This document shows positions 31,784 through 51,610 of a DNA stretch of 64,000 nucleotides, piece after piece; position 1 is the stretch's first letter; each line of letters opens with the position of its first letter. Made by a program: the position numbers and the translations under genes. This DNA is from Phlyctochytrium arcticum. Its lineage: Eukaryota; Chytridiomycota; Chytridiomycetes; Chytridiales; Chytridiaceae. Location: the NCBI GenBank assembly GCA_025602905.1, contig JAHLKI010000006.1, positions 992,001 through 1,056,000 on the forward strand, given 5' to 3'. Below the pieces are notes generated by a model, which worked only from the letters and a program-made list of their open reading frames with translations, had not been told where the DNA came from and searched no databases.

Positions 31784-31788
31784 GGGAG
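31784..31788. repeat. putative target-site duplication, left copy (GGGAG)
   Basis: The five bases immediately before the left hairpin palindrome are GGGAG. The same five bases follow the right hairpin at 49201-49205. The inner flanks of the two hairpins do not match them, which favours one 17.4-kb insertion over two separate hairpin insertions. A 5-bp match can arise by chance. Confidence 0.65.
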
Positions 31789-31869
31789 TCTGACAGTGCG
31801 GTAGTTACTTAAGAACGGGTAGCTGCCGAAGGCAGCTACCCGTTCTTAAGTAACTACCGCACTGTCAGA
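31789..31869. repeat. left terminal palindrome (I-shaped hairpin)
   Basis: A perfect inverted repeat of two 39-base arms around a GAA loop, 81 bp in all. The outer 32 bases of each arm are the shared stem; the inner part is the small GCTGCC-GAA-GGCAGC palindrome. It has the same outer ends as the right palindrome but lacks that one's second internal arm. Confidence 0.95.
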
Positions 31870-31904
31870 GATGGTAGCTCACTAAGACCGTCTCCGTCGA
31901 AATA

Positions 31905-31958
31905 GCTACCCGTTCTTAAGTAACTACGAGGAGCTAACCGTTCTTAAGTAACTACGAG
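31905..31958. repeat. two direct copies of the hairpin-stem motif inside the left end
   Basis: GCTACCCGTTCTTAAGTAAC (31905-) and GCTAACCGTTCTTAAGTAAC (31933-), each followed by TACGAG, repeat the inner part of the terminal stem in the same orientation, 28 bp apart. They look like iterons or protein-binding sites next to the terminus. No matching copies were noticed inside the right end. Confidence 0.85.
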
Positions 31959-32734
31959 AATGCCTTAGGGTCGGTCGTTAGGTACTTACATTCCTGGCAA
32001 GAATCCGCCCTCAATCAGTGAAGAATGCCGCGTGCCCCTCAATGACTGGCGCCCTTATGCTCACTAAACGTCCCAATTTCCGCGCTCTAAAAGTTAACCG
32101 CTCAAGTTTTCAAACTGTTCACTTCCCCGACATCCATCACTGTAACCAACCCGTTGGCTGGACCTGGTTTCTTTGGTTTCTTTTTTTGTTATCGATAAAC
32201 TCACTCCCCACAGCAGCTACTACTGTAAACAAACCCGTCTTCAACGCCGCAACTATCTACTGACCACGCAAAGCCTCCACGGGCAGGCAACCACAACCTT
32301 GCATCTTGTCCAAGTTCCTATCTTTGCAACTTCACGCCCCAGCGCACGGGTTCCATTTTAGGACAAATCAGAGTCGCAGCCACGCTGATGTAATCAGAGC
32401 TCCGGCGTGTTCGTGAAATACGTGTTGGTAAATCTACCTTGACCCTGTTTCATTGCAGACTGTCAATAAAGTTGCGCTTTTACGTCACGAACCTCGAGAT
32501 GTAATAATTCACTTTGGATTGGCTGACGTTTTGAGCCGTTTTGTGTAGCAACGATAACAGTTATGTGCGAATTTCAGATGGCGATTTCTCTTTTAACTCC
32601 CCCCCCTTCCAGGTCCCCCCGTTTCGGTCCCTCGCATTGGACGAGTACGGAGACGCTTAGATACCCTCGGCACACATATTATCTCAGCCTGTCTTCAATA
32701 TTGGAGCGTTTTATCCGGGTCCACTCGAGTTATC
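31959..32734. other. element leader region upstream of the first ORF
   Basis: About 780 bp between the subterminal repeats and the first ORF. It should contain the promoter of the replication gene. Plus-strand frames such as 32018-32263 have no recognisable domain. A pyrimidine-rich stretch (CCCCCCCTTCC near 32600) lies 130 bp before the ATG at 32735. Confidence 0.4.
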
Positions 32735-33780
32735 ATGGCTTCTAGTCCCCCCAATAATCGGCGGCAGGATGGCCGATTCATCGCACCATTCAACGATACA
32801 GAACCGAAAGGAGTCAAGCCTGTCTGCATCATTTGCAAGACCAAGTCCAGTACCCGCTACTGCCATCGAGATCTCGGTCTTCTTGCCCATCTTCGAGCGA
32901 ACAACGTCCCATTTCATTTCAGCACGGATGCCGGCCACAAGAATGCCACGTTTTGCAAAAAATGCTGGAACCAACTTGACCGCAAGTACCCACATCCCTT
33001 GTTTCGAGTAAATCAGAAGGAAAACGATGCCCAGGCAGTCGCAACTAGTACATCGACAACCATCACACACGTCACGCCCATGCCGGTACCGCCAATATCC
33101 GTGATTGCACAACCTGTCATGCCTACACCTGCAACGTTTGAACCCGTTGAGCCTATTTTCGGGGTGCATACACCCGTCACGCCCACGTTTGGCTCGCCCA
33201 CATTCGGCTCGCCCACGATCGCCTCACCTACGCCTACGCGCACAATCAACTTTGGCACTATCACTGTCGACTTGGAGGACAACAGGAACGATTTTGTTGA
33301 GCCGGTCATGTCCGATACCTTGAAGTTTAGGAACGGCGTTCTTGACCTGCTTGACAAGGAGTGTGATCTCAAGATGCCTTTTACATCGGATTTGGACGCG
33401 TTTATTGAGCATTTAGATAGTTGCGACAATTTGGCGACGAAGACAGCGGTCGACTTGGGGCTCTCAGGTACCTAATGCTTGACCACTCATACCAGTGAAA
33501 CTGAAACATTTCTACCAGCTGTTAGCTGGAAGCAAACAGAGTCAGAGAGAAGGAGAAGAATCATAGCTTCCATTACTGTACAGAAGGCCGCATTCCTTCA
33601 TCCCCACATCAATTTCATGAAGGATGTGTTGATATCAACCACATTAGGATTATCCGAGAGCAGTAGAAAGGTGCTCGCGTCTTTTAATTTGAGTTTCAGT
33701 CCGGACGTAGCGATGCAGAAAATGAAGGAAGCGAACGCGAGGGCGTACAAGGAGCTGACCGAACAGATGAGCGGGGTACA
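32735..33780 (+). CDS. element ORF with Cys/His zinc-binding N-terminus (may be the 5' part of the next gene)
   Basis: ATG at 32735 (MASSPPNNRRQDGRFIAPFN). Residues about 30-90 hold a Cys/His cluster: CIICKTKSSTRYCHRDLG, then H...FCKKCWNQLD, suggesting a zinc finger. A Pro/Thr/Ser-rich linker follows, with a short repeat (FGSP.FGSP.IASPTP). After NLATKTAVDLGLS an intron (donor at about 33468, acceptor at about 33518, 51 bp) leads to a helical, Arg-rich segment (WKQTESERRRRIIASITVQK, RKVLASFNLSFSPDVAMQKM) that runs to about 33780. There the coding signal moves to another frame without an obvious intron. DUF6589 proteins often carry such N-terminal helical regions, so this is probably the first part of one long protein with the following ORF. 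The exact function is unknown. Confidence 0.6.
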
Positions 33781-33781
33781 G

Positions 33782-36700
33782 TTGTTCCAGTTGTCAAGAT
33801 GGACGACTTCAACAGAGTTTCAGTTCATGGAACACCTGGTTCGGCGAACTCAGGAAAGTTCAGCACCGTGCAAACTCAAGCTAACTTGGCTGTGAAGTTT
33901 TTTCCGAAGGGGCAATCGTCTTATGATGAGGAGAATGGACACGTACATCGAGCTTTACCTCTACCACTCTTGGAAAAGCCGTATATAGACTTCAGTGACA
34001 TGGGATCTGACAAGGACAAGAAGGCCTTCGTCAACGCGCCTCTCCTAGACAAAGCAATAACTGACATCGTTGAGAAGGAAACCTACGGCGAAAAAATTAT
34101 CAACACAAACCAAGCGAATGCTTTTCGCAGGCCGTATCAATTCGACATGTCAACCAGTGCCGCTGAATTAAAACAGTTTCATGTTTTCGATGCGATGCCG
34201 AACAGAATGAAGACTGCGGAAGATTTACGATCTCTAATGGTTTCCGTCAAGAAGTTTATTGAACACTACAAAGACGGAGCGATTTTCATTACTGGCGACT
34301 TATATGTTTGGCGGAACGTCATGAAGATACTATGGGCGAAAACGCGGGGCCGTCTATCTCCAGACCATGCATATCTCCGAATCGTTCTTTGCCCATGGCC
34401 TGATGGTATGCACATCGCACTGAATGCCCAGCAAGGTAAATCCTTATTATCATCGTCTCAAGGCTACATACTTAATGCATCACAGCGTTATTGCAATGGA
34501 ACTTCAATGTGTTCATGCCTATTTGGAGCTCCGCATTCCCGGATTTTGCCGTTCAACTAGTAAAGCTGCGACCTGTAAGGCGCATGATGTTGCTAACAAT
34601 GATGTTCTTAGCTTGGAAACAGTGCCGTGTCCAAGTGATGGATTGGGCGAAACAGCAGAAAGATCTCCCCGAATTCCAGCGTGTCATAGTGGACTCCCTC
34701 ATCCGGCTGTTCGATGAAGAGTTGCCGCTCGTACTGGATGCTGCAACGGCCATGGCCAGCGGCAACATTGTGCTGTATAAGGAGGTACTGCATAGGTTGT
34801 TGCCACTCTTCATACGATATCGCAAAAGGAACTATGTCACCATCGTTCTCCACATTCTCTCTGCAATCCAGGAGATTGAGATGGGGGGTGATGATAACAT
34901 CACTGCTGCGCTATATAGCAACCTGCCACTAGCAAGTTCTGAGGATCTGGAGGTTTTCCACTCCCTCCTCCGTGCTTGCATCCGGCCATTCGACTCGCAC
35001 GGCCGTGCCGTCTTAAACACACTTTACCTCTCTGCAAACAAAAATTTAAGTTCAAGGTCATTTCTGGCGCAAGTCGCAAAACAAAAAGCTGACGACAGGA
35101 AAAAGCGGACACCATGGACAAAGTTCGCGGGAAAGTTCACACTTCAACCACGACAGCCCGTAGAGACCAAACGTACACAGTACTTTAACTCACATCTCGA
35201 AATCATGGTCGCTACTCTTAAGGACATGTTCCGCAAACTCATTGCCAATTCGCCCAACATCACCATCAAGGGAGAGATGATGTTCTCTCATTCTGCCACC
35301 GCTAGAAAAGTTCGCGGGTATCAGGTCCGCTATATAGTGGCCCCATCCCAGCCATCAACCGCTACAGCAACGGAACCCGCGAAGAAGAAGCGAAAGAAGA
35401 ACACCAAAATTTCGAAACGCGACATACGAGGCAACAAGGAAGGCTGTTTCCTCGCTTTGGTATATCAGACGTTCGAGAAACAATGCCTCACTGCTATTAT
35501 GGACAACTTAAAGTCTCAGAACTTCGAGGCTCATGTTCCCATCTTTGACGGAGCGTTGGTGCTCAAGTCTCCCCAATTGGCTGACATACCTGCTTTGTTG
35601 AAGGACTGCGAAAGCTATGTTCTGGAACGTATCCACCATGAGGTTGTCTTATTGCAAAAGGACTTCTCCATCCCTTCAGAATTTCTCACCCACTGGCATC
35701 TTCAAGTCGTTCCGGCTGCGACTTTGCTGACGAAGCGGAAATTTGAGGAAGGACCCGACGAAGACGATGATGATGAGGAGGAGGGAATTGTAGTTCTTCC
35801 TATTCCTGAGGATGAGGTTATCTCGATCTCGCGAGCCAAGAAACTCTTCAACAATGGCCAGGATCCTAAGTCCCTGCTTCGTTATCTCAACAATTTCTTT
35901 GCAAAAGTGACCGAGCAGGATACAGCTTGGTTCTGCTATCGCGAGAAGCGGAGCGACCCTTGGATCTGGCGTGACAAAGCAACAACTTCAACATGTCTGT
36001 CGCACCTGTCATTTACCTATCAAAAAACGGGAAGATCGGAGAAGACAAAGACAACCCAATTAGAGCTGTTCCGCTTCTGGTACCAAGAACCCAAACTGCT
36101 CACCTTCAAGAAGATAGTGATGAACCCACGGTGTGTCGGTGACCGCAATGGCTATGAACTGAACCTTTTCCGCGGATTCAAGGCAACGAGGCTGGACTCT
36201 TACGACGAGACAATTCTGGCTCCAATCTTTTACCATTTGCGAGAAGTTATAAACGGAGGAGTTGAGGAGCACTGGCGCTACTTGGAAGGGTGGTTGGCAT
36301 CTATGGTTCAAAACCCGGAGGACAAAAATCGCACGGCCATTGTCCTCCACGGATCACAAGGTACCGGCAAAAATATCCTTTTTGAATGGTTCGGTCAGTA
36401 CATCATAGGCAAGGATCACTATCTCTATCTTAATGACCTGGACGATCTCACCGGTAGATTCACTTCACTTCAATCTGCCAAGATCTTTGTATTGGGAGAC
36501 GAAGTTGTCTTTGCTGGTGCACACAAGACGAACAACATTCTGAAATCGAAGATAACTCAGGCCTGGCAGAAGTGCGAGAAAAAGGGATGCGATCCTTTTA
36601 TGATTGAAGACTTTATGAACCTATGTTTCCTAAGTAACAATGTCAATGCTGTCAAGATTGAAGACACCGATCGCCGCTACTTTGTCAAGTGTGTTTGCGA

Positions 36701-37187
36701 CAAGCACCGCAATGACCAGGAGTACTTTGCTCCTTTATGTCAAAGCCTGACGCAAGAAACAGCAGATCACTTCTACACCTATCTGATGAGCTTGGATCTC
36801 AGCAAATTCAACGTTCGCAACATTCCCCATACAGAGGAGAAGGAGGATATGCGAGTTATGGCAATGAACCCGTTAGATCTGTTCGTGGAGGAAATGCTTG
36901 ACGGGGGCATTGTCCACGAGAAAGAAAAATGGGATGAGGAGACAAAGTCCAAAAGTGATGCTGCATACTTCCAACCTGGAGAAACGTATCAAATGACAAT
37001 GGTTGAACTGTTTGAACGCTATGTTGAGTTCTATGGTAGCAGTCATTCAGGGTGCGTTCGACACAGCGGGCTGTTGGCAAAGAAGGCTTTCGGTAAGGTC
37101 ATCCGCCGGAAGCTAGCCATTGAGAATGCAACTCAGAACCGGAATGGAGGAACAAAGATCAAACTTACTGTTGCTCGTCCTACATAG
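33782..37187 (+). CDS. DUF6589-like / superfamily-3 (D5-like) helicase replication protein
   Basis: The reading frame from about 33782 contains KMDDFNRVSVHGTPGSANSG and GAIFITGDLYVWRNVMKILW, then LRIVLCPWPDGMHIALNAQQ. An intron (about 34436-34488, GTAAAT...TCACAG) joins this to LLQWNFNVFMPIWSSAFPDF and VLYKEVLHRLLPLFIRYRKR-NY. This layout resembles fungal DUF6589 proteins. After a basic nuclear-type signal (KKKRKKNTKISKR) and an FDGALV motif, the C-terminal part is a superfamily-3 helicase: Walker A HGSQGTGKNILFEW (36351-36374), motif B KIFVLGDEVVF, motif C NLCFLSNNVNA and the DTDRRYFVK arginine finger. Such helicases drive replication of polinton-like viruses, virophages and other DNA viruses. 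It stops at 37187. No primase or polymerase active site is certain. The helicase call is firm; the DUF6589 call is by pattern and less sure. Confidence 0.8.
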
Positions 37188-37600
37188 CAGTACATTGGTC
37201 CACCAAATGTATTTTAAATGTACACTGAATATTGCGCCTGCTCGTTGGTTTATGTGGTGTTTTTTGTCTCTATTCTGTTATCTTGTACATTTGTACATCA
37301 AATACAGCAAAAAATAGAATTACAAAAGAAGAAAGAACCACTTTTCAAGTTGAGAGCTGAACTCATATATTTGGTGACTTTGGGATGCCCCGACGTTTTT
37401 TCAAATGTACAAATGCACAATGTACAGGTCAGTTACATCCAAAAAGTTACATCCAAAATGTTACATCCAAAAAGTATCCGGTTGACCGCGACATGATGAT
37501 GCCAAACTTTTTTCATTACCGCTGTTACATAGAGAAGGAGAAACACATAGACCCTTTTTAATGGAGCAAGAGCATAGCAGCGAGTGGGAGCGTATATTCA

Positions 37601-37783
37601 ATGCCAAAGCCAAAGCCAAAGGAAAAACCAAAACCGAAGGCAAAGCCAAGAGCAAAAACGTTCGAAGCTGAAAAAGTTCAGCCTCTGTACGAAAGTGATG
37701 CAAGTACTGACGGAGGTTTTGAGTCAGACAATGCCGAGCCCAAAACGTACACGGTTCAATTTAAAGACATATACGGGTATTAA
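37601..37783 (+). CDS. tiny Lys/Pro-rich element protein
   Basis: ATG at 37601 opens a 60-residue frame whose first third is built of KPKPKEKPKPKAKPRAK repeats, followed by an acidic part (YESDASTDGGFESDN) and the ending QFKDIYGY. It lies just before the candidate capsid gene (54 bp apart) on the same strand. The charge pattern suggests a DNA-binding or DNA-packing protein, as small basic proteins of some DNA viruses, but there is no family match I can name. An alternative overlapping frame also runs here, so the call is tentative. Confidence 0.5.
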   Translation: MPKPKPKEKPKPKAKPRAKTFEAEKVQPLYESDASTDGGFESDNAEPKTYTVQFKDIYGY

Positions 37784-37837
37784 CGTTCCCGATACTGATC
37801 TTTTTTTTTCTAAGGATAAGCATTAAACTCTTTGAGG

Positions 37838-39076
37838 ATGGGCGAAATCGAGATCCCTCGTAATTGGTTGGTGAATACCAGAACGTTTGCTCAACCATAT
37901 TCGAACCCACGCGGAGAGGGTATTTCCACCTATGTTCCAATCGGTCAATCGACATACTCGACTAAGAGTGGAAAACTAACCCCGATTATACTAACTCTTG
38001 AGTCTAGCGCGCAGAGCCTATACTTGCAAAATTTGCTGATATCCGCAAATGTGACCGCTCTCAATGCGGGGGTACCCGTGTCTGGGCTAACAAACAGCTA
38101 CTTAGGCCTGGATATCTGCATTCAGAGTTTGGTGATCAAGGCTGGCGGCGAGGTGGTGCAGTCTATCAGTAACTATCCAGCATACGCCGCGCTGATCTAT
38201 AAAAATCTGAACAAAGGGATGAAAAGCATACTCAGTAGTTGCTCTGGCTATGGAAAGACCAATTTGTTTGCGACTACCTCGAGCCGAAAGTATGTAACTC
38301 ACCCGTTGGTAGGTTTTTTCCATCCCATTAACGGTGGACCTATGCACGTTTGGGCGCTTGACGCACAGAGTCTTACAATTGAGCTTACTCTCAATGACCC
38401 GAGTGCTGTGTTCACTGCTGGAACGGTTGACGAGATTCGATTTGACAACATTGTGTGTCAAACGCCATACACGACCCCTCATCCGGAATTTGTTCCCAAA
38501 GTTGTAAGCTCAATCAACAGTGGCAACAGCATATTTTACGATTATATCAGGACAACCCAACTGGAGAATGCCTGCTCTGGAGGGACTAAGAACACCTTTA
38601 ATTTGCATATGAGCGGCGTTCGGTCATTGACTTCATTTCGTAGCTGCTTTGTTGACGACGACGTTATATCGGACCGGACGAAGGATAAGGCTCTAAGCTT
38701 CAGTAGCCAAGGATTGACGGATTGGAGGATAGGTCTTGGGCCTTCGCTATTCATTCCCGCCAGCTATCCGTTCACGCACGGCGCTACCGATCCAACGACG
38801 TTGCTGGTAACTGAACTGAGTAATAACGCGTCTTTTGAAGCGCTTGGCGACATGGACATCTCGTTCGACGATTTTGACCAGCGGCAATTTGCTTTTGGAT
38901 GGAGTTTTCAATCCCGAGATGAAGGTTCAACCGCGAGTTTGAGCTTTACTGGAACGGACTCAGTAATGAAAATCGAGACAACACATAACCCAGCTCCATC
39001 GCAAAAAGTTTGTTGGTTGACTCAGTATAACGAGAACGTCACTCTGGCCATAGGACCGGTCGTTAAAGTCATCTAA
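37838..39076 (+). CDS. candidate major capsid protein (double jelly-roll-like)
   Basis: ATG at 37838 (MGEIEIPRNWLVNTRTFAQP) opens an uninterrupted 412-codon frame with no introns. It is rich in Ser, Thr, Val and Asn with alternating beta-strand-like segments and no membrane helix. The segment LYLQNLLISANVTAL, then DICIQSLVIKAGGEVVQSIS and NYPAYAALIYKNLN, recalls the first jelly roll of double jelly-roll capsid proteins, where an interior strand ends 'G..v......Y......'. The middle has FFHPINGGPMHVWALDAQSL and the last third LGDMDISFDDFDQRQFAFGW. The position between a helicase gene and small structural-looking genes fits a morphogenesis module. The length is at the short end for the family. 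The identification is inference from pattern and context; a structure prediction would settle it. Confidence 0.55.
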   Translation: MGEIEIPRNWLVNTRTFAQPYSNPRGEGISTYVPIGQSTYSTKSGKLTPIILTLESSAQSLYLQNLLISANVTALNAGVPVSGLTNSYLGLDICIQSLVIKAGGEVVQSISNYPAYAALIYKNLNKGMKSILSSCSGYGKTNLFATTSSRKYVTHPLVGFFHPINGGPMHVWALDAQSLTIELTLNDPSAVFTAGTVDEIRFDNIVCQTPYTTPHPEFVPKVVSSINSGNSIFYDYIRTTQLENACSGGTKNTFNLHMSGVRSLTSFRSCFVDDDVISDRTKDKALSFSSQGLTDWRIGLGPSLFIPASYPFTHGATDPTTLLVTELSNNASFEALGDMDISFDDFDQRQFAFGWSFQSRDEGSTASLSFTGTDSVMKIETTHNPAPSQKVCWLTQYNENVTLAIGPVVKVI

Positions 39077-39211
39077 GGCTCCTTGAATCGAATCCCTAAG
39101 GATTGAAGTTGATTGAACAATTGTCATTAATGTATGTATGTATCGTTTATGACAATCGGTGATGTTGATGTTGATGGCCAGTACCGTACGTGGAGTCGGG
39201 GGACGCGCCGC

Positions 39212-39517
39212 CTATGTTCCAGCAGCCTGAGATCGTTGGACCCTATCAATAAAGTCATCAATGTGCCCGTGAGTGTCTCTGACCCGGTTCAAACCCTTTG
39301 AAGCTCCTTCGTTGAACAAGCTCGATTTTGACCGAATTTTCTCGTTGAAGAGTTCCGGTTTGGCTTGGATAGCGTCGTTCACGGTCCCTAAGAATTTCTG
39401 ACCTTTCGTTGCAAGGTTGATTCCGCTTGTTATGAAATTTCTAGCCTGGCGGAAATGCGTTGGTGCATTGGTATAAAGTGACCGGGCTCTGTCTCTGACT
39501 CGGTTAAAGAACGACAT
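39212..39517 (-). CDS. small divergent element protein, possible minor capsid/membrane-active protein
   Basis: ATG at 39517 (MSFFNRVRDRARSLYTNAPT) gives a 101-residue frame that stops at 39212, with no intron. The N-terminus is an amphipathic basic helix, followed by a hydrophobic Gly-containing stretch (FITSGINLATKGQKFLGTV) and then charged helices. This resembles in style the small pVI/pX-like internal proteins of adintoviruses and adenoviruses. It is the only clearly minus-strand gene in the virus-like module. It faces the Pro-rich gene at 39595 across a 77-bp AT-rich gap, probably a shared promoter. Assignment to a minor capsid role is inference. Confidence 0.5.
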   Translation of the reverse strand: MSFFNRVRDRARSLYTNAPTHFRQARNFITSGINLATKGQKFLGTVNDAIQAKPELFNEKIRSKSSLFNEGASKGLNRVRDTHGHIDDFIDRVQRSQAAGT

Positions 39518-39594
39518 TTTCGCCAAAAGACACGTATAGGACGTATAGCGTTGAGAGTAGCTTTGTAGAAAGCAAACAAATAATTTTTTATCGT

Positions 39595-40794
39595 ATGTCA
39601 AAGATACATAGGGATAGTTTTAGAATGACAGCTCCCTACAGAGCGAACGCCTTGGAACGAGACCTGAATCTTCCTCAAGGAACCCCGAATCTGCAACGAA
39701 GACAAACGGGATTCGCTCACGACTATGGTCATCTCGACATCTATGGTCGACCCGACACGGTCTATTCCTGGAACAGAAACATACACAGAAAGGATCTAGC
39801 GACTAGAAAACCCAGAGGTAGCTATGCTGAGGTTACGAGGCTTCCACGCCAACCTTCCATCTCGAAGGGACGATTAGACATAATACGCGCCCCAACCTAT
39901 AGCAAGGCATACAAAGACGGGTTAGAATATATCAAGGCCGAGGAGGATTACAGAGAGAGACAGCGATATTTGGATAAAATTACGCCAACCCGTAGCAATG
40001 GGTTGCTGACCGTGGGAACGAATTTGTCAACAAGTGGGCTGCCAATTCCAAATGCAGACGGATATGTGTTTCACTACCCTGCAGAGGTCACGTCGCAGAC
40101 CGGACTGATGTTCGAGGCTCCTTCACATAACGAGCCCCCCATCATTAACTATACAAATGATCTGGTCAGACCCAGAAATCCAGTTATTCTGACTAAAGAA
40201 ACACACCTCACCGTAGATGCCGAAACGGGTGCTCCCCGTTTAAGCGAAGCTACCGGTAGTGCATCAGCTCCACCCATAGTGGTTCCAGAGCGTCAACCTA
40301 TACCTATGCCAAAGATCTTTACAGGAACAGTGACCGTTCCCAATGACTCGCCGAAGGAGGAACTGGAACCACCTAACCCCATCTTGCCAGGCTCTTTCCC
40401 ACTAGTCAGGTCAGAACCAGTTCAACCACCTGTCACCATTACCGACAATACTGAGGTTAAATCTGTGATACAAGAACAAGAAAAGGCTGCTTTAGACATA
40501 GTTCTGGCGAACGCTCCTCAACCGGCCACTTCTCCTTTCATTTTTATGGGTAAAGCTCGTATAGAACAAACTCCTTCAGTCCTAGGCAAACGAAAAAAGC
40601 AAAAACAAGAGGAAGACACCCCAGCTAAGAAAAGACGCATTGCACCTCCAAGTAAGGGAAAGCGAAAGGCAGACGACCAGCTTGAGCGGCCCATCATCAA
40701 GACTCGACGCATCGAGGAAAATGTTGAAGATGTCAAACTGACTCCATATGTCGAACCGACGTGTCTTCCAAGTTCCAGCACAGATATTAATTGA
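39595..40794 (+). CDS. Pro-rich element protein with C-terminal basic nuclear signals
   Basis: ATG at 39595 (a second in-frame ATG at 39625 starts MTAPYRANALERDLNLPQGT) opens a 399-codon frame without introns. The N-terminal third is Arg/Tyr-rich (FAHDYGHLDIYGRPDTVYSW). The middle is Pro/Thr/Val-rich and probably unstructured. The C-terminus has clustered basic signals: LGKRKKQKQEED, AKKRRIAPPSKGKRKAD and IKTRRIEEN. This architecture fits a virion core or scaffold protein, or a minor capsid protein, delivered to the nucleus, but no family is recognised. It lies in the virus-like module downstream of the candidate capsid gene. A basic segment in the -1 frame continues after the stop (see separate entry). 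Confidence 0.6.
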   Translation: MSKIHRDSFRMTAPYRANALERDLNLPQGTPNLQRRQTGFAHDYGHLDIYGRPDTVYSWNRNIHRKDLATRKPRGSYAEVTRLPRQPSISKGRLDIIRAPTYSKAYKDGLEYIKAEEDYRERQRYLDKITPTRSNGLLTVGTNLSTSGLPIPNADGYVFHYPAEVTSQTGLMFEAPSHNEPPIINYTNDLVRPRNPVILTKETHLTVDAETGAPRLSEATGSASAPPIVVPERQPIPMPKIFTGTVTVPNDSPKEELEPPNPILPGSFPLVRSEPVQPPVTITDNTEVKSVIQEQEKAALDIVLANAPQPATSPFIFMGKARIEQTPSVLGKRKKQKQEEDTPAKKRRIAPPSKGKRKADDQLERPIIKTRRIEENVEDVKLTPYVEPTCLPSSSTDIN

Positions 40795-40944
40795 AAGGAT
40801 ATGTAATTAAAAGTTGGACGGTGCGATCAGCGTCTGCCGGTTCGAAAGAGTTGGCAAAGGAAGTGAAAAAGAAACTGCTGAAAAAAATCTCTGCACTGAG
40901 TATGCAGCGAAACATTGTATTCAAATTTCGCAACAATTAATTCT
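40791..40944 (+). other. short coding-like basic segment in the -1 frame after the Pro-rich ORF
   Basis: Directly overlapping the stop at 40792-40794, the -1 frame reads about 50 codons: GYVIKSWTVRSASAGSKELA and KEVKKKLLKKISALSMQRNI, then VFKFRNN and a stop. It has no good ATG of its own except a late one. The composition looks like real protein, not random. It may be a C-terminal extension lost by a frameshift, a product of ribosomal frameshifting, or an exon. Confidence 0.4.
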
Positions 40945-41139
40945 ACTGCAAATATTTGTGCCCTCGCACGAAACACCGTAATTGGTCAGCGATAACGGCA
41001 CACCAATCCTTGAGGCTAATCTCGTTTCAAAGCCGTTTTCTTGAAGTGAATGTGGCCCGCAATACCTCGAACGAAAGAGAGAAAAGTATTAGAGAGAGTC
41101 TTGCCACTAAAATTTGAAAGCACAGGGCCATACGGACAC

Positions 41140-41660
41140 ACCGCTCCTTTAAGTGCTTCCTACCGAGAGCCTCTACCCCACAAAACCAGCGATTTGGCAC
41201 CCAGTATTTTCAGTTGATTGGATACGGTAGCTTCGATATTGCGAAACCAGCGATTTGACACCCACATCAAGTGACTGAGCACGGCAGTTCGGGACCCAGC
41301 AGCGTCGCCATTACAAGGCTAGCGTCGGGCTAATGGTGGAGACGCCGTATAGGATGCCCAAAAGTAAGCGACTTATCCTTCCCAAGCAGGTATGCGAACA
41401 TCGGATTTCTACCAGATGGTGCGGGTGGCCTCTCAAAGTACTTCCTACCGAGTGTCTCTACCCCACAAAACCAGCGATTTGACACCCAGTATTTTCAGTT
41501 GATTGAATACGGCAGCTTCGATGTTACAAAGCCATCGATCTGTCACCCACATCGACTGACTGAGCACGGCAGTTTGGGACCCAGCAGCTACGTCTCTAGA
41601 CGATAGCTTGAGTGATGGTAAAGCCACCGTATAGGATGCCCATAAGAAGCCATTTTTTCA
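41140..41660. repeat. direct repeat of about 210 bp, two copies
   Basis: Copies near 41150-41365 and 41436-41650 share the start GTGCTTCCTACCGAG.G..TC-like, CCCCACAAAACCAGCGATTT, CCCAGTATTTTCAGTTGATT, ACTGAGCACGGCAGTT and CCGTATAGGATGCCCA, with scattered mismatches. No coding role is seen. They lie just right of the virus-like gene module. Confidence 0.8.
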
Positions 41661-42559
41661 TCTGAAGACGCGAGACGCCGAACACCAATCCGGTCGAACC
41701 GCGTTCTTATACCGGCCCAGGAAAGCCACATCGCAACTTCAAGCAATGCGATGCTCACCTTCGCGTTCCTGTCCCCGCAATGACCGATCGGCGGGAGAGT
41801 TTCTGCTGTCAGGCAGTGCCGATTACACACTTGTTCGGTTCATACTCGTTCAGAATTTGCAAGGCCCGGCGGCGTCTAAAGAAGTCAAAACTTTAGTACA
41901 CGTTTGAAAAAGAACGACATTTGAATGGTTCGCCAACGAACTAGTGACCTTTCAAAGAAACCTTACAACAACCAGATCGGTGAGACATCTTCCTTATCCC
42001 AGTCCGACAAATCGCGTCTCGCCGTCTCCAAAGGCACAATTTATTAACTTGATTTATAATCGGATTTATAACTGACTATGCCACCGGAGGCTCCATTCCC
42101 GTCACGCGCAAGATTTGAATGTGAGCTAGCTTCGACGACGATTTTGAAGCAGATCGTGAAAACTCTGCTCAATCCAACAATTCTCCGAGTCATGATCCAC
42201 CCAGCAAAAGTTTGTTGCGGAGCCTTTTGTGCTTAACACTCCCGGACCCGGCGGTCATTCCCAGAAGCACTTCGACACGCCGCTGGCAAGTAGCTACATT
42301 GACTTCCTTACTGGCGCAATCTTCAGGTGGAAAGCTTGTGGTGAAGCTCGGCGATCGTTTCCTCTTCGAACAATTACTTATAACGACTCAAGTCAAAATC
42401 TTGATAAACAGATGAGCGGCACTGCTTGCGGACTATGAGCATGAGTTGAGCCAGTCACTTCGGGCTATCGAATGACTCTCATTTCTCATCTTTTTACCCA
42501 AGTCCCCAAAACCAGCCCCAAAACCGACCTGCAATCCTGCATATATCTAAAATATATAT

Positions 42560-43345
42560 AGGTGTGGGGCTGAGCGCTTGCTCTATCCAGAACTTCCGGG
42601 GACGACAAATGCGGCGATGGATGGCCTGTAAAAAGGGAAATAGATCAGTTGAGGAAAATGGCATGAACATCCAATCTGATTTAACATACCAACATAATCC
42701 CAGCCATCGAGAGTGCTGGGTGACACAGAACGACTGGGGTCGCTTGCTCTACCCGAACGTTTGAAGTACTGATGGTTGCGCCCCGTCCAGCAACGGATAT
42801 ACTGAAGTGAAACAATAGATCAGTTGAGGTCGACATGGACATCCAATCTGACGTAACATACCAACATAATCCCGGCCATCGAGAGTGCTGGATGACAGAG
42901 ACCGACTTTCCTAAGAGAACGACTGGGGTCGCTTGCACTACCTGAATGTTATTGGTATCAGCAAATGTAGCGACAAATGGCCTGTAGAAAACAAAATAGA
43001 TCAGTTGAAGGTCGACGACCACAATCAGCAGCGGGACAGAGAGAGGAATCGCTTGCTCTGCCCAAAACTTTCGAGTGCCGACAGATGCGGCGACGGATGG
43101 CCTAGAAAGAATGAAATAGATTAGTTGAGAACGACGACATCGACATCCATTCTGATATATATAAACATACCAATATAATCAAGGCCATCGAGAGTGTTGG
43201 GCTGTCTCCTGGTGCCATACTGGACCATTATCGTCCGTCAAAGGGGAAAACGACTGAGGTAGCTTGCTCTGTAGAAAATGAAATAGATCAGTTCAGAACA
43301 ACATGGATATCCAAAATGATGCATAAACATACCCATGTATTTCGG
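42560..43345. repeat. degenerate tandem repeats, about 150-190 bp units
   Basis: Four to five diverged units carry TAGATCAGTTGAGG, ACATCCAATCTGA, ACATACCAACATAATCCC, GCCATCGAGAGTGCTGG and AACGACTGGGGTCGCTTGC in the same order (starts near 42641, 42816, 43009, 43118 and 43285). No ORF crosses them. This looks like noncoding satellite-type sequence within the element. Confidence 0.75.
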
Positions 43346-43826
43346 TGACACCTCCCAGTTGAGGGTATCCTACCCTCAATCCTCAAGCCGCTTTAACAAG
43401 GTTTTTTTTTGGGAAGGAGGGAGTTCGCGGTATGCGCGAAATTATGAGCGAGGAAGAACGGAATTGTGGAGAGATGCAGAGCGTAAAGCCTCGCGTGGGA
43501 ACGCGTGGCGCAACTCTTCATCTGTTGTCGCCTGGACCTCCGCATCCGGTGGCTGTGCAGATGGAGTCTCTGATCGTTTCTAAGATCGTTTCGAACTTTC
43601 GAGTGTCGGAGTTTGAGGGGGCTCAGACTTTTTGAAGGGGGCAGCCCTGGGGGCTGGCGGCTGCCGTTGATTGGAAGATCGGCGTAGTGATCTATCTCCG
43701 ATCTGACCATCCATGGCGCGCTTGCGCGAAGCATAAAAGGGGGGACGATCTCCGATGACCTCCATCACAAGTTCACAACCCCACAACCAACTCCAACCCA
43801 ACATCGCACCACCAAAAACCAAAAAG

Positions 43827-44544
43827 ATGCCCGTCACACACATCCTATTCGACTGCGACAACACCCTAGTCCTCTCCGAACACCACGCCTTCACAGCCTG
43901 CACATCCCTCATAAACGAAATCCTCTCTTCCCGACACATCCCAAAGAACTACACTCCTTCAACCCTTATCCAAGAATTCGTCGGCATGAATTTCCGGGGG
44001 ATGGTCGTCAAATTATCCCAAACATACTCTTTCTCGATATCTGACGCCGAATTGGATTTGTTGGTCAAAGAAGAGGAGGATCGAGTAATTTCTGTTTTGG
44101 AGAAGGAGTGTGAGGCTTGTGAGGGTGTTGATGATGTATTGAAGAGGTTATTTGATGGGAAGAAATATGGATTGGCATGTCTCTTCGTCGGCTGAACGAC
44201 GAGTACGTGCATCAATGAAAAAAGTGGACCAACTCAAGTATTTCCCGGATACGCATATATTCAGTGCGGCAACTTCTCTCCCAGTCCCGACCTCAAAACC
44301 TGATCCGGCCGTTTACATGTTTGCGTGTGAGACTGTAGGTAAATCGCCTGCTGAATGTGTTGCGGTCGAAGATTCTAGGAGTGGGACATTGTCGGCTGTT
44401 CGTGCGGGTATTACTGTTGTAGGATATGTGGGGTCGTATGAAGCTGACCGACAAAAGGAAATGACGGATGTACTTTTAGAGGCGGGGTGTAAGGTTGTCA
44501 TGACCCGTTGGAGTCAATTTGAAGATATACTGGCTTCCCTGTAG
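43827..44544 (+). pseudogene. HAD-superfamily hydrolase, one frameshift
   Basis: The frame from ATG 43827 begins MPVTHILFDCDNTLVLSEHH, with the HAD motif I DxDxT/V nucleophile. It runs through a helical cap to KKYGLA and then hits a stop near 44194. One base out of frame, the next part continues SSSAERRVRASMKKV (motif II Ser), SKPDPAVYMFACETVGKSP (motif III Lys) and CVAVEDSRSGTLSAVRAGI (motif IV acids), ending DILASL at 44544. A single lost base near 44176 explains the break; no intron borders fit. The enzyme type is a phosphoglycolate/beta-phosphoglucomutase-like sugar phosphatase. A TATA-like CATAAAAGG lies near 43730. An in-frame ATG at 43755 is less likely because it is so close to that box. 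It could also be a sequencing error in a live gene. Confidence 0.75.
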
Positions 44545-44642
44545 TTTTTCATTTCGTATTTATGAATCGATACCTTCTCCTGTACATACTCTAATCTTGT
44601 TGATGATGAATGATACTCTATCCCAATGCAATGCTACCTACA

Positions 44643-45045
44643 TTCACTACCCTACCAAAGATCAAACCACTCCCACCCCTTCGTGCACATCGCAAACCCA
44701 ACTCCAGTCTCATCCCCCTCACACCCCACCAACCCCCGTTTCTTCCACGCCTCCACAACCTTTTTACATTCCGTCTCTTTTCCCTGCCACGATAAACTCT
44801 TGGCCAGTTTTCCGAGTAAGGTGCCCAACATAACCGGATCTTGGTCATCCGTACGAGATTTGATTCGGGATTGGAGGAAGGGTTATAGCGTGGGAAACTC
44901 TTTGTATATTCTCTACTAATCAAATACTACCCTACCAAAGATCAAACCACTCCCACCCCCTCGTGCACTCCGCAAACCCAACACCCGTCTCATCCCCCTC
45001 ACAGCCCACCAGTCCTCTTTTCTTCCACGCCTCCACAACCTTTTT
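44643..45045. repeat. duplicated C-terminal exon fragment (two copies of about 115 bp)
   Basis: Segments 44648-44770 and 44931-45045 are near-identical direct copies. On the minus strand both code for CKKVVEAWKKRGLVGCEGDE, TGVGF and a WEWFDLW ending followed by a stop. The left copy extends upstream in frame (DPVMLGTLLGKLAKSLSWQG). The parent protein is not recognised. The right copy is joined to the end of the REase-like pseudogene. This shows local duplication and gene-fragment shuffling in the element's right half. Confidence 0.7.
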
Positions 45046-45050
45046 ACATA

Positions 45051-46783
45051 CTATGATAATCTCACCATCCGGCGTTTCCCAACTTTGGCGGGAGTGATGG
45101 GTGCTCGCGATGAGCGGGACTTTAATTGTTCCTTGCTGACCAAGGGTAGTCGAGATAGCACATTGTTTGGGCAGGGCCCTTCGTCCCGCGCGAGAATTCT
45201 TTGGATATTCTCGCATGCTGGCAGAATCCGTTCTCGAAGGTATTCTCCATATTGGAGCATACCTCGAACTCCCTTTGCATCTGGGCCTATGGTGAACTTT
45301 TGTTCCCCGTACTTGACATACCACCACTGACCGGCGATGTCGACAACTTTGATGACGTAGAACTTTGCCGTCCATTTTGATACGAGCCCATAAAAAACCT
45401 CAACTTTCCCGACTTGTTCGTGGGTAAGATTTCGGGCTGCAATCAGACTATGGAGCTGTTAGATGGCTTCTCCGGGAGCTTTGATGAGATCCTTATGGAT
45501 CCGACCCTTTAGGCCCAGTTCGACCTTCTCAACTTCCATCACGCAGGCACCGATGTCGTTGACATCATGCGCAACGTAAATGGTCACATCGGATTTGGTT
45601 TTGTTGTCCGCGTCCCCCTCGGACTGAAATGTGTGTGCGAACTCTAGTGAGACGCCCACTCCCGTGTCCCCAACCGCAGGCAATGCAGCACGAGTGGCCG
45701 CAGCCCACACCGACCTGACGTCCTCTTCATCAACCTCTGATGCCCCCATCGGGATCTTCAAAGACGTCTCTATTAGCGTGATGACGGAAGCATCGGTCAT
45801 CAAGGTTTTTGAGGGGGGAGTTCTCATTCCCAATTTGAACCAGAATGAGTCAAATTTTCTTAAAAGGCCTTCCGATTTTAGCGAGTCCAATATCTTCATA
45901 GTCCCCCGGCTGTGCTGAAAAACGGCAGAGAGAATTGATTCGTTGTACGTGGCACCCCGCTTGACCCAAGAGTTGGAGGGGACATCTGTGATTTGTGCAA
46001 GAACAGCACTGTCCAGGGCGCCACAATCCCGCAGAAGTCGCAAAAGATGTCTGCCCTGCTGCTTTAAGCGTACGTCCCCTTGGTTGGTGTACGCAATTAA
46101 GGTGGTAACATAATTTTCAACAGCATGAGATCCTCGAGCCCATAGAATCGCGCTCGCCGGGGTGTACAGTTTCTCCTCTCGGAGGTCGATAACCTCTTCC
46201 GTAATACTCTCCACACTGGCTCTTTCCGGTAACCGCTGCCGCTTTGGTTGAGCAGCAACTGGAAGGCTGTCCTCGACATTACTAGATTGACGCTTTCTGG
46301 GCAAGAGATTCTCGTCCTCCAAGTGCAGCTCCACCTGCCCCAAAGCTCTTCCTATGCCTTTGGCTTCGATGGTGCTCTAGAGATAAAGAAACCAATAAAT
46401 GCGTCATGATTTGTCAATGGCGATACAAGCGGGTTTACCTTTGTAAAGTGGTTGTGAAGCTCTAGATACGACGGGAATCCGGCTTGAGCCTCGACCTCAA
46501 GGCGTTTCGCCTCGTCCCTAATGAACCGCTCCAAATCGCTCTTTGCATGCAGCCTTCGGTTCCAAATTTGATGCAGGTATGTCTTGATCGCAGCACAAAA
46601 GTTTTTTTTTACGGAGAATCGCCATTTTTTGGCCAGCACAACTGGGTCAAACCCGGTCCCGACATTTTCAGCGGTTTGCGAGATTCTTGCAGCAAACGGT
46701 ACGTTTGGTTTTGCACATCTAGTACTTGCTGATCCTGCATGAAGATGACAATCATGAGTGGAGTGCTTGGTTGGTGGCGGCAT
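45051..46783 (-). pseudogene. PD-(D/E)XK nuclease-like protein, interrupted by an in-frame stop
   Basis: Exon 1 (46783 to about 46441) has an Arg/Lys-rich helical part (KKWRFSVKKNFCAAIKTYLH). One intron (GTAAAC...CTCTAG) leads to a second exon running from about 46379 to a TAA at 45459-45461. Beyond the stop the same frame stays open to 45051 and is clearly coding (LHSLIAARNLTHEQVGKVEV, YVIKVVDIAGQWWYVKYGEQ). The segment SDVTIYVAHDVNDIGACVME-VEKVE followed by GEAI(stop)QLHSL and FYGLVSKWTAKFYVI has the D...E.E/K...Q layout of REase-like domains that occur in fungal host- and transposon-linked proteins. The whole is about 560 codons. A nonsense mutation in an otherwise intact frame suggests recent loss. 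Family assignment is by pattern only. Confidence 0.55.
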
Positions 46784-47148
46784 AAATAGATAAACCAGGA
46801 TCTATTGATGCAAACCGGCGAGACTCTCATCGCTTGAGTCCGGCCGGAAAGAACAGCTCGAAGGGCGTTGCTTACATGTTTCGCTCATTATTTTACTTCA
46901 CCACAGGTGCCGACGATCTCCGGACGATTTACTTACGACGCGTCCGCGACGTGACGCCGTGTCAAGATTCTGGATCCGGACGACTCCGGGACGACGGACT
47001 CGAGTCATATGACCTGAGTCACACGTAGCCCACGTAGCACATTCGATCCCCTTCCATATTTAGCCTAGTTCGGTATATAGACTTTCTGTGAGTTTGAAGT
47101 TTCCCATTGTTTCGATAGACGTACCCCCTGCGGGGGATTTCCTGTAGT

Positions 47149-47157
47149 ATAAAAGAG
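47149..47157 (+). promoter_or_regulatory. possible TATA box before the CoA-transferase fragment
   Basis: GTATAAAAGAGGG near 47147, about 95 bp before the first coding-like bases of the CoA-transferase fragment. Just upstream, CCCCCTGCGGGGG (about 47125) is a short inverted repeat. Whether it is used is unknown. Confidence 0.35.
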
Positions 47158-47242
47158 GGAGAGGCGAGAAACGAACAAGAAAGTAGTTTATCCTACAATT
47201 CTCACACGCCGACGTCGCTCGGCGTGGCGCAGCTGGGATCAT

Positions 47243-47801
47243 ATGTGTACTAAGAAGTTTCAGGCCTTCTCTACTAAGGACAGCTATATTGTTGTGGGTG
47301 CCGGAAACGACAGACAATTTCAGAAGCTATGTTCGCGGTTGGAGATGGACCATCTTGTCCAAGATCCCAAATTTGCTACTAACGCTTCCCGTGTGCAAAA
47401 TAGATCGGAATTGGTTTGTCCAGCGCTAAAGTGCACGCTATTCCGCACTCACTTGACCTCTTTTGTAGATTAAGATCCTCTCCGATCGATTTAAATGCAA
47501 TCCAACCGCAGACTGGCTGTCCAAGTTCGAAGGCATAGGCATCCCTTAAGCACCAGTTAACAACATCAAACAAACCTTTGATCATCCGCAAGTCCAATAC
47601 CCTGATATGATACAAGAGGTTGATCATCCTCGCTCGGGTAAAGTAAAATTGGTTGGCATTCCAGTCAAATTTTCCCAGTGTCAACCCAGCATCCGGCATG
47701 CTCCACCCACCCATGGCCAGCACACAACGGATGTGTTGAAGACCCTCTTAGGCTACTCGGAAAGCAAAATTGACAAACTCAAACTTGGAGGAGCCATCTA
47801 G
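47243..47801 (+). pseudogene. truncated CoA-transferase family III (SUGCT/formyl-CoA transferase-like)
   Basis: Family III CoA-transferases move CoA between carboxylic acids; the mitochondrial SUGCT group acts on glutarate or succinate. The fragment starts in the middle of the domain: FQAFSTKDSYIVVGAGNDRQ, FQKLCSRLEMDHLVQDPKFA and NASRVQNRSEL. An intron (about 47416-47470, GTTTGT...TTGTAG) leads to IKILSDRFKCNPTADWL and FEGIGIP, then a TAA at 47547 where the family has a Cys or similar before APVNNI. The frame continues to the natural end VDHPRSGKVKLVGIPVKFSQ and LLGYSESKIDKLK at 47801. The N-terminal half, which holds the catalytic Asp, is missing. It is therefore a 5'-truncated, stop-containing copy. 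Confidence 0.75.
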
Positions 47802-48009
47802 CATCTAGAAGTGACTAAGAAATTAGATCCGTTGATTCGAGTGGAGTTTGGGTGACAAAATTGTTAGAGAAGTCACCTCGTATATCGGCCATGTATTCAT
47901 ACAGCAGGAGCGGTGAAATGAAAGCAGCGTTACCAACACTACGACTATGATTTCAAGGCTAAGCTACCCTATGACTACGCTATCTTAAACTGACTCCAGC
48001 GGCGCTGGG

Positions 48010-49077
48010 CTAACGACACATTTTGTCATACATGTCTGCAAACTCAGAGTCTTTGTCGGCACGCGGTAAATGTGCCCAAAGCAGAGCACGGGCGCCTAAG
48101 TTGGATCAAGTCATTGGTTTGCAATGTCATTATATATGGCGGCAATTATCAAACCTGCAGCATCCAGCCGGTCGGCGTAGGCAACCTCCGAAATATGGAA
48201 CATCCAAAAGTGGCCATTGTTGCAGGCTTCCATGCAAGGCTCGCAGGGTTGCGTTACATGGTATCCTATCACATTTCCACTGGAAGAGAGCAGTTTAGAT
48301 ACCGATTATCCTCGTGATCAAAGTGTTTTACCATCCCAAACATGCAACATCTCGTATCCGGCAATAGCAGTTGCGGGTTTGGTAGTCATCGTTGACTAGT
48401 TGCACCCCTGTACCGACCATCAGCTCCCGGATGCAACTGACCACAATACCATTCTCACCATGTGGTGGTACGTCGGTGGAGAAGAGTTCGATCTGCATCA
48501 CAATTTAGCTATGAACCGCGTTTTTTTTGCGCAGTCTTACGTTCATGTCCGCCAAAAGAATGGCCTTCATACCACGTCGACAAACGGTCGCGAAACAATG
48601 TCTGCAGGTCAGCTCACACACAACCTTACTACGAAACTGTGGACGAATTGCGTCGCTTGCAACATCAGTACTCTGACGCGTCCAGTTTAGTCGGGAATTT
48701 GAACGTCCAGTTCCTTCTACCTCTCCTGTATTTGCAGTTGCCCTTCGCATGGACAGCCGGGAACCTGTCACCTGATACAGATTGCTACTAGATGTGCTGC
48801 TGGATGTAGAGCCGGGTCGAGACTGAGTAGTGTAATTAGATGGCATCGGGGGCCCTGAACCCGTTGTGATTCGAAGATGGCTTTGATGCTGTACGCCCTG
48901 CGCATCAAAGGCTGCTCCTTCCGAGGTAGATCCAGAGGTAACTTGGCCCGGATTCATGCCACTAGTTGCTACGTACACGTAGCCGTTGTAGGTGGTATGG
49001 GCTGGGAAGTAGGGATATGACGCCTGAGTGTGTGATGGTGCTGTTCCATATGCCTGGTAAGCGAACCGCGGACCCAT
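48010..49077 (-). CDS. FAM72-family zinc-binding protein, apparently intact
   Basis: FAM72 is a small conserved eukaryotic family with paired CxxC motifs; in animals it influences UNG2 and cell-cycle control. Exon 1 (49077-48541) has a Ser/Thr/Gly-rich extension and then FRSKVVCELTCRHCFATVCR and RGMKAILLADMN. Exon 2 (48492-48459) adds IELFSTDVPPH. Exon 3 (48407-48332) adds VQLVNDDYQTRNCYCRIRDV and ACLGC. Exon 4 (48279 onward) adds GNVIGYHVTQPCEPCMEACN and NGHFWMFHISEVAYADRLDA. The last exon gives ARALLWAHLPRADKDSEFAD and stops at 48010. All four introns keep frame; the last donor (GTTTGA) is weak. Every family landmark is present, including the second C..C pair and NNGHFWMFH. The start lies only about 25 bp from the right hairpin, so it sits inside the element boundaries. 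Confidence 0.85.
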
Positions 49078-49102
49078 CGTGGAGGTGTATCGGGATATGC
49101 TG

Positions 49103-49200
49103 TCTGACAGTGCGGTAGTTACTTAAGAACGGGTAGCTGCCGAAGGCAGCATTCTTGACAAGAATGCGACCCGTTCTTAAGTAACTACCGCACTGTCAGA
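49103..49200. repeat. right terminal palindrome (T-shaped hairpin)
   Basis: Two 32-base arms, identical in sequence to the left terminal stem, enclose two small palindromes: GCTGCC-GAA-GGCAGC and GCATTCTTG-A-CAAGAATGC, which share a GC. The predicted fold is a long stem with two short side arms, as in AAV-type inverted terminal repeats. Compared with the left end, a single T is replaced by 18 bases that form the second arm. Confidence 0.95.
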
Positions 49201-49205
49201 GGGAG
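49201..49205. repeat. putative target-site duplication, right copy (GGGAG)
   Basis: Immediately follows the last base of the right palindrome and equals the five bases just before the left palindrome (31784-31788). Confidence 0.65.
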
Positions 49206-49842: not shown

Positions 49843-50164
49843 GCGCGAGATTCGAGTGTTCAGTACCTTTAAAGGACGGCACCGATGCATCGAAGTCTCA
49901 CCGAACGGTGTTCAGGATGCTCCATAAATCGTCCTCCTCGAGTCTCGAATGTTCCGTCTCCATTGTCTTTGTTGCCGCAAAATCCTGCCGATTCCCTTGC
50001 AAAGCCCGCAAAACTCGCGTGTTATATCCTCACCGGGTTCTCTAATGCAATAAAATTTATAGTCATGTCTGAGAGCATGATCTTTCCTTTCTCACCGGTG
50101 CGCTCGATGCTCCAAAAGCAAATACCGATGTCCGCGCACGCGAGTACTCTCTTTTCCGGGTGGT

Positions 50165-51610
50165 CCGTTCTCCAAACTGTCCGCGTACTCCAATCTTCAT
50201 GATTCCACGTCCTTGACCTGCTGTCGCCCGCGTACTCCAATCTTCTTTTTTCAATGTCCTTGATCTGCTGTCGCCTGCGTACTCCAATCTTCTATCTTCC
50301 ACGTCCTTGACCTGCTGTCGCCCGCGTAATCCAATATTCTTTCTTCATCGTCCTTGACCTGCTGTCGTCCGCGTACTCCAATATTCTTCCTTCATTCTCC
50401 TTGACCTGCTGTTGCCCGCGTAATGGAATCTTCTTTCTTCATTGTCCTTGACCTGCTGTCGCCCGCGTACTCCAATCTTCTTTCTTCAATGTTCTTGACC
50501 TCTTGTCGCTCGCGTACTCCAATCTTCTTTCTTCAATGTCTTTGACCTGCTGTCGCCCGCGTACTCCAATCTTCTGTCTTCAATGTTCTTGACCTGCTGT
50601 TGCCCGCGTACTCCAATCTTCTTTCTTCATCGTCCTTGACCTGCTGTCGCCCGCGTACTCCAATCTTCTTTCTTCAATGTTCTTGACCTGCTGTTGCCCG
50701 CGTACTCCAATCTTCTTTCTTCAATGTTCTTGACCTGCTGTCGCCCGCGTACTCCACTCTTCTTTCTTCATTGTTCTTGAACCCTGTACTCCACTCTTCT
50801 TTCTTCAATGTTCTTGACCTGCTGTTGCCCGCGTACTCCACTCTTCTTTCTTCAACGTTCTTGACCTGCTGTTGCCTGCTTACTCCAATCTTCTTTCTTC
50901 AATGTTCTTGACCTCTTGTCGCCCGCGTACTCCAATCTTCTTTCTTCAATGTCCTTGACCTGCTGTCGCCCGCGTACTCCAATCTTCTTTTTTCATTGTC
51001 CTTGACCTGCTGTCGCCCGCGTACTCCAATCTTCTTTCTTCATTGTCCTTGACCTGCTGTCGCCCGCGTACTCCAATCTTCTTTCTTCAATGTTCTTGAC
51101 CTCTTGTCGCTCGCGTACTCCAATCTTCTTTCTTCAATGTCTTTGACCTGCTGTCGCCCGCGTACTCCAATCTTCTGTCTTCAATGTTCTTGACCTGCTG
51201 TTGCCCGCGTACTCCAATCTTCTTTCTTCATCGTCCTTGACCTGCTGTCGCCCGCGTACTCCAATCTTCTTTCTTCAATGTCCTTGACCTGCTGTCGCCT
51301 GCGTACTCCAATCTTCTATCTTCCACGTCCTTGACCTGCTGTCGCCCGCGTACTCCAATCTTCTATCTTCCACGTCCTTGACCTGCTGTCGCCCGCGTAC
51401 TCCAATCTTCTTTCTTCAATGTCCTTGACCTGCTGTCGCCCGCGTACTCCAATCTTCTTTCTTCAAAGTCCTTGACCTAATGTTGCCCGCGTACTCCAAT
51501 CTTCTTTCTTCCATTTCCATGACCTGCTGTCGCCCGCGTCCTCCAATCGTCTTTCTCCCACGTCCTTGACCTGCTGTTGCCCGCGGAACTTGAATGTTCT
51601 TTCTACCAAG
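50165..51610. repeat. 47-bp minisatellite, about 30 tandem copies
   Basis: The unit is about 47 bp with the core CCTTGACCTGCTGTCGCCCG followed by CGTACTCCAATCTTCTTTCT and TCAATGT. Copies differ by a few substitutions, and blocks of several units are repeated as higher-order copies. One unit near 50775-50795 is shortened. Because 47 is not a multiple of three, no long frame can cross it, so it is not a coding repeat array. It lies about 1 kb right of the element. Confidence 0.92.

Follow-up and report, generated by a model that had tools for sequence, protein, structure and literature searches.

Palindromic hairpin-type ends on a probable polinton-like virus copy in the genome of the chytrid Phlyctochytrium arcticum

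The 64,000-nucleotide stretch analyzed here (the window, C6:992001-1056000, where Cn designates the contigs of the 31.5-Mb genome of Phlyctochytrium arcticum) contains a unit of 17,412 bp (31789-49200) that begins and ends with long palindromes and is flanked by a duplication of GGGAG. This observation, made in a preliminary description of the sequence, is confirmed. The unit probably derives from a chytrid polinton-like virus with palindromic hairpin-telomere ends, of which it is a decayed and composite copy, and the sequence of these ends suggests that the free viral DNA would be hairpin-ended, that is, linear with folded-back tips.

The two end palindromes are built on the same stem, as first described. 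The left one has perfect 39-bp arms, and the right one, with 35-bp arms at 97%, folds as a perfect 32-bp outer stem enclosing 34 nt that form two small hairpins. Their predicted folding has z-scores of -18.8 (left) and -14.9 (right) against shuffled sequences. With both hairpin sites removed, the rest of the window has no perfect arm longer than 11 bp when loops up to 30 nt are allowed, and first-order random sequences give 9 to 11 bp by the same measure in five of five cases; the right palindrome scores only 9 in this way, because of the length enclosed by its perfect stem. A chance origin of the hairpins is ruled out by the comparison of arm lengths with the rest of the window and with random sequences. 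The GGGAG copies were correctly placed directly outside each palindrome, and the inner flanks have indeed no match to each other beyond the hairpins.

The hairpins belong to a single family with 24 sites in the genome, identified by searches with the window ends, the stem, and a 47-bp palindrome on C44 and C24 that is related to them. The genome searches scored part of the candidates (51 of 201 in one case, 150 of 222 for the rve integrase), and the counts are lower bounds. The sites comprise 18 of the 47-bp type, the two of the window, one 67-bp type (C2:1195095), one T-shaped hairpin (C2:1044842), and two hybrids (C24:351184 and one on C30), with the half-sites C7:617811 and C2:210366 left out. 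The anchored pattern ACAGTGCGS...SCGCACTGT, with a gap of 20-50 bases, is found at 19 places per strand and its reversed control at none. Among the hairpins of the 47-bp type, 17 of 18 are perfect palindromes and the remaining one has an arm mismatch; their centre base varies (A, T, or G). Loops such as the CGAAG centre would make for unusually stable DNA hairpins. Between hairpin types, stem positions 2, 4, 13, and 16 are altered on both arms, with few independent changes, as would be expected if the ends are copied through a fold. One and the same viral subterminal sequence adjoins 12 of the 24 hairpins (10 of the 18 of the 47-bp type, the one on C30, and C2:1195095), and at C1:2931 the hairpin and its subterminal sequence adjoin the start of a capsid gene.

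Hairpins of this family also bound four further units with perfect 5-bp duplications, three of which have helicase genes and one of which has capsid and integrase genes. Identical outer 5-mers are found in four of the six same-contig pairs of the 47-bp type (C13 TGGTT, C24 AACCG, C44 GAGGA, C6 TTCCC); a seventh pair, C24:328000/352707, was excluded because it spans two units. In the cross-contig control the outer 5-mers are equal in 2 of 286 pairs, both because of duplicated ends (C15:723430 equals the C6 left end and C85 the C44 right end). These unit ends are duplicated together with their outside flank (C15:723430/C6:97321; C85:15214/C44:67161). With the window included, matching 5-mers are present in five of nine candidate pairs, and the hairpins of these five units are 17-37 kb apart. 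The recurrence of hairpins with matching duplications at other units bears out the earlier proposal of an integrated, virus-derived, polinton-like element with palindromic ends.

The preliminary description had named as contrary evidence the finding of the hairpins as short repeats lacking the genes. A small part of this is observed: solo hairpins exist, including an insertion at C2:1044842, the C26 hairpin adjoins repeat sequence, and the window right hairpin adjoins host-like sequence. Yet half of the family adjoins the viral subterminal sequence, and the 5-mer matches at paired hairpins rule out unlinked short repeats. Given identical outer 5-mers at hairpins so far apart, it is very improbable that viral and host DNA are here simply flanked by short repeats unconnected with each other.

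The flanks of other copies, to which the preliminary description had looked for a check, have matching 5-mers at C13, C24, C44, and C6 and unmatched ones at C15 and C22, and empty sites reconstructed by removal of the insertion give long joint frames at C6 and C2. The solo T-shaped hairpin C2:1044842 is flanked by a 5-bp duplication, TGACT. Without the hairpin and one TGACT, the locus reads as an open frame of 312 aa, which aligns without gap at the joint with an uninterrupted C30 relative. Similarly, when the 36.6-kb C6 unit at C6:97321-133912 and one TTCCC are removed, a frame of 234 aa results, in which an NDC10_II match (9e-31) extends across the joint. Long joint frames arise with 2, 5, or 8 bases removed in C6 and with 5 or 8 in C2.

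According to its predicted structure (pTM, a predicted template-modelling score, of 0.71; mean pLDDT, a per-residue confidence, of 68.6), the product of the 412-aa open reading frame (ORF) at 37838-39076 is a double-jelly-roll major capsid protein, with structure matches to PBCV-1 Vp54 (1.5e-14) and Sputnik (7.2e-11). Structure prediction thus substantiates what had been put forward as a candidate capsid gene. Its identity is 54% with the hexon of Powellomyces chytrid fungus MELD virus 5 and 55% with a protein of Spizellomyces punctatus. Because the capsid belongs to a known group of polinton-like viruses, that of Spizellomyces and Powellomyces, the lineage is one already known; the S. punctatus group is published (PMC7805220), and the earlier statement that no group with this combination is described in fungi is not supported in that form. 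Capsid matches number 58 in the P. arcticum genome, including the window gene itself and fragments, and the capsid inside the C6 unit is 30% identical to that of the window. In IMG/VR, none of the 39 pattern matches to the capsid alignment was confirmed as a relative, and the 18-base core of the 47-bp palindrome, searched as an exact string, has 0 matches.

An rve integrase match lies within 6.5 kb of 24 of the 30 full-length capsid matches, where about 1.9 would be expected; for two of the 24 (C40:29656 and C19:519890) the sole rve match is in a frame of more than 1,000 aa, possibly that of a retrotransposon. The C6 hairpin unit has an rve match inside it, together with its capsid gene, and sibling lineages with integrase are present on C4, C17, and C23. 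These linked integrase genes and the 5-bp duplications suffice for integration, so one may ask if the unit is an ordinary integrase-type element whose short palindromic terminal repeats are integrase binding sites, with no hairpin-ended molecule and with a symmetry maintained by selection or gene conversion. Published polinton-like viruses do integrate via terminal repeats and short duplications, according to the accessible part of PMC12220804. However, the symmetry of whole palindromes of 47, 67, and 81 bp, their differing cores, the changes on both arms, and the T-shapes would seem to exceed the needs of a dimeric site, and we consider this explanation unlikely.

With hairpin telomeres, the replicating DNA would be linear with its ends folded back, and each end would be one duplex copied through the fold, so that both arms stay identical. 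An enzyme would open the hairpin and the end would be filled in to the full palindrome. A retroviral-type integrase would then join both ends to a 5-bp staggered cut; complete relatives would supply it in cis, and the window copy would receive it in trans. Recombination between the two end palindromes could remove the interior and leave one hairpin, and aberrant ends might cap truncated or host-derived DNA.

Several results weigh against this scenario. The pairs on C15 and C22 (two of the six of the 47-bp type) have no matching 5-mers, and the hybrid or half-hairpin pairs C24:351184/352707 and C7:617811/618069 have no duplications. In the register used, the outer arms of the hybrids C24:351184 and C30 are unpaired; the C2 solo hairpin mispairs at positions 2 and 4. 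In C13 the longest joint frame is not obtained by removal of 5 bases, and the joint tests at C44, C24, and the window are uninformative. No integrase match is present inside the window, C44, C24, or C13 units among the rve candidates scored. The centre of the C24 unit (approximately 100 bp) is not a hairpin palindrome. Finally, no hairpin-opening or resolving enzyme was identified in the searches for two families: the telomere-resolvase family PF16684 has 0 matches genome-wide (its control was positive in 1 of 14 genomes), and the tyrosine-recombinase family PF00589 has five, none inside the units. PF04848 gave no match, its control being also silent, and an NCBIfam search gave nothing useful.

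The last searches bear as well on a telomere resolution similar to that of phage N15 or of phaeoviruses, in which the palindrome would be a resolvase site that is cut and resealed into hairpins. Such enzymes use palindromic sites with a single centre, and one eukaryotic giant virus is described as having both a gene for a telomere resolvase and a palindromic site of linearization (PMC13236599). The phaeoviruses and phage N15 thus share with the units analyzed here a palindromic site at the end of linear DNA, but integration leaves 5-bp duplications here, and in the absence of PF16684 from the genome matches and of PF00589 from the units, this explanation is quite improbable.

Returning to the hairpin-telomere reading, two relatives have an internal symmetry. 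In the portions compared, the C24 unit has its axis of symmetry at C24:315807, with two helicases pointing outward, and the C44 unit has inverted arms of approximately 3.8 kb that are 98.7% identical over 3,432 columns. Both are compatible with a linear molecule folding back in replication. Because the centre of C24 is not a hairpin, this unit is not a textbook rolling-hairpin product, which argues against simple hairpin-to-hairpin dimer formation. Inverted pairs of capsid or helicase copies 16-21 kb apart are also found at C4 (889534/909451), C1 (1325439/1341274), C40 (8384/29656), and C30 (313907/330542), and these are perhaps further inverted dimers. A response-regulator-like gene, with a Pfam match just below the cut-off, is present in both inverted arms of the C44 unit (L043:7559-7930 and L078:3914-4285), and a DnaJ-type gene, a host-like passenger, lies inside the C24 hairpin unit (L047:773-1573).

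The window copy is defective and composite: it has a replaced helicase N-terminus, a host-like right side, one stop-bearing gene, and no integrase found (Table 1). The superfamily-3 (SF3) helicase gene reported earlier holds for its viral portion, 35409-37184, which corresponds to residues 207-798 of the 798-aa C44 relative, itself 100% identical to a named P. arcticum protein. The rest of ORF 34515-37187 does not: the ORF is a chimera whose first ~300 codons come from a repeat and are found elsewhere at up to 100% identity. The repeat has replaced the N-terminus, and the N-terminal polymerase-domain region is absent from the window copy. Folds of the helicase match NrS-1 and D5/AsfvPrimPol, and the AlphaFold model of the helicase N-terminus (pTM 0.37) is too weak to name a polymerase type. 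The high-copy repeat, apparently a young mobile element, has copies on C5, C7, C14, C33, C6, C4, and C3, with a 453-aa frame in most of the best copies and a subthreshold match to DUF6589 (E 0.046).

Table 1. Features of the palindrome-bounded unit, in window positions
Feature	Position	Strand	Remarks
Left target-site duplication copy GGGAG	31784..31788	none	directly outside the left palindrome
Left terminal palindrome	31789..31869	none	straight hairpin, 81 nt, perfect 39-bp arms, 3-nt loop GAA
Two additional 24-bp half-stem copies inside the left end	31904..31955	+	
Subterminal sequence in common with hairpin-bounded relatives (C30, C44, others)	31978..32183	+	
Copy of high-copy repeat, truncated	33016..35417	+	99.3-99.8% identical to the 8 copies compared; left edge tentative; fused to helicase at 35417
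SF3 (D5-like, PF19263) primase-helicase, N-terminally truncated	35409..37187	+	equals residues 207-798 of the C44 relative
Major capsid protein with a predicted double-jelly-roll fold	37838..39076	+	intact 412-aa ORF
Small viral ORF	39212..39517	-	homologous stretch in two C4 relatives (tblastx)
399-aa viral ORF	39595..40794	+	homologous stretches in two C4 relatives
HAD-type hydrolase, host-like	43755..44544	+	70% to C33:204548-205275
Accessory gene	45051..46376	-	relative of a gene that lies directly within the hairpins of the C6 unit (36.6 kb); in-frame stop 45459-45461
CoA-transferase III fragment, host-like	47153..47473	+	
Gene with partial Yippee-type zinc-finger match (PF14976)	48505..49077	-	
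Right terminal palindrome	49103..49200	none	outer stem as in the left one, T-shaped with two internal hairpins
Right target-site duplication copy GGGAG	49201..49205	none	directly outside the right palindrome

The right half is a patchwork. Positions 43823-44545 and 44652-44825 are similar to a C33 locus with a HAD hydrolase, and the hydrolase gene of the window was probably captured. Positions 45070-45856 and 46291-46378 are similar to the sequence that adjoins the two C6-unit hairpins on their inner side, and 47262-49101 is 75% like C31:189109-190927, a similarity that ends at the right hairpin. The chimeric helicase and this patchwork rule out one undisturbed 17-kb viral genome. The polinton-like type with hairpin-type ends proposed at first stands; most of the right half resembles host sequence or is shared with another element. 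Polinton-like viruses also have a penton or minor capsid protein and a packaging ATPase; the two conserved ORFs next to the capsid gene have no Pfam match above the cut-off, no search aimed at the ATPase having been made, and the 399-aa one is possibly structural. The unit also has imperfect internal direct repeats at 41151-41588 (~150 nt), 42606-43319 (35-74 nt), and 44646-45049 (124 nt). Just to its right begins an array of 47-bp tandem repeats (50087-50994, searched to 51000), with a strong base-composition skew.

Terminal palindromes of the T-shaped form, with two small internal arms, are those of parvoviruses of the AAV (adeno-associated virus) type. The ends of the window unit were initially called parvovirus-style, and in shape, by sequence and predicted folding, they are. 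The resemblance does not extend to the genes: the capsid is a double and not a single jelly roll, the units span 17-37 kb, and the ORFs scanned have no Pfam match to a parvoviral (HUH-endonuclease) Rep or capsid, no genome-wide search for Rep having been made. With Polintons/Mavericks the units share the double-jelly-roll capsid, the rve integrase in relatives, and short target duplications, but they differ by the palindromic ends, by duplications of 5 bp, and by the lack of a Pfam match to a protein-primed PolB in the ORFs scanned.

Polinton-like viruses have terminal inverted repeats and duplications of ~4-7 bp, according to the available parts of PMC7805220 and PMC12220804. Among the features by which such viruses are recognized, the double-jelly-roll capsid is present by predicted structure. 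Long terminal inverted repeats (hundreds of bp or more) are lacking in the window unit, where the inner flanks do not match beyond the hairpins; the C44 relative has inverted arms of ~3.8 kb. A short (~5-6 bp) duplication is present as GGGAG and in four relatives, and the SF3/D5-like helicase, often fused to TVpol, is represented by its helicase part (PF19263). An rve or tyrosine-recombinase integrase was found in the C6 unit and not in the window unit. The S. punctatus polinton-like group and the Powellomyces MELD viruses resemble the window unit in their capsids, their chytrid hosts, and their integrated state. Unlike it, the S. punctatus group is described with terminal inverted repeats, with duplications of 5-7 bp in three elements, and without mention of hairpins in the accessible text of PMC7805220. 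The word is also absent from the accessible texts of PMC10120064, PMC4642659, PMC12220804, and PMC11071296, and occurs once in that of PMC11071308, where it belongs to the title of a cited work about a Neurospora plasmid. The titles and abstracts surveyed, most of the subscription literature being out of reach, report no hairpin ends for this virus group.

The chances seem to us evenly balanced that there is, among chytrid polinton-like viruses, a hairpin-telomere double-jelly-roll group with straight and T-shaped forms, recombining centres, and a retroviral-type integrase, which would represent a third strategy of end replication in this virus class, next to protein-primed ends and long terminal repeats. 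Major lineages of linear DNA viruses are set apart by the way in which they copy their tips. If true, a double-jelly-roll virus with parvovirus-shaped hairpins would unite two terminal strategies that have been held separate, and would bear on the exchange of parts among polintons, bidnaviruses, and parvoviruses. Since P. arcticum has numerous copies and one or more solo hairpins, the question is testable in culture.

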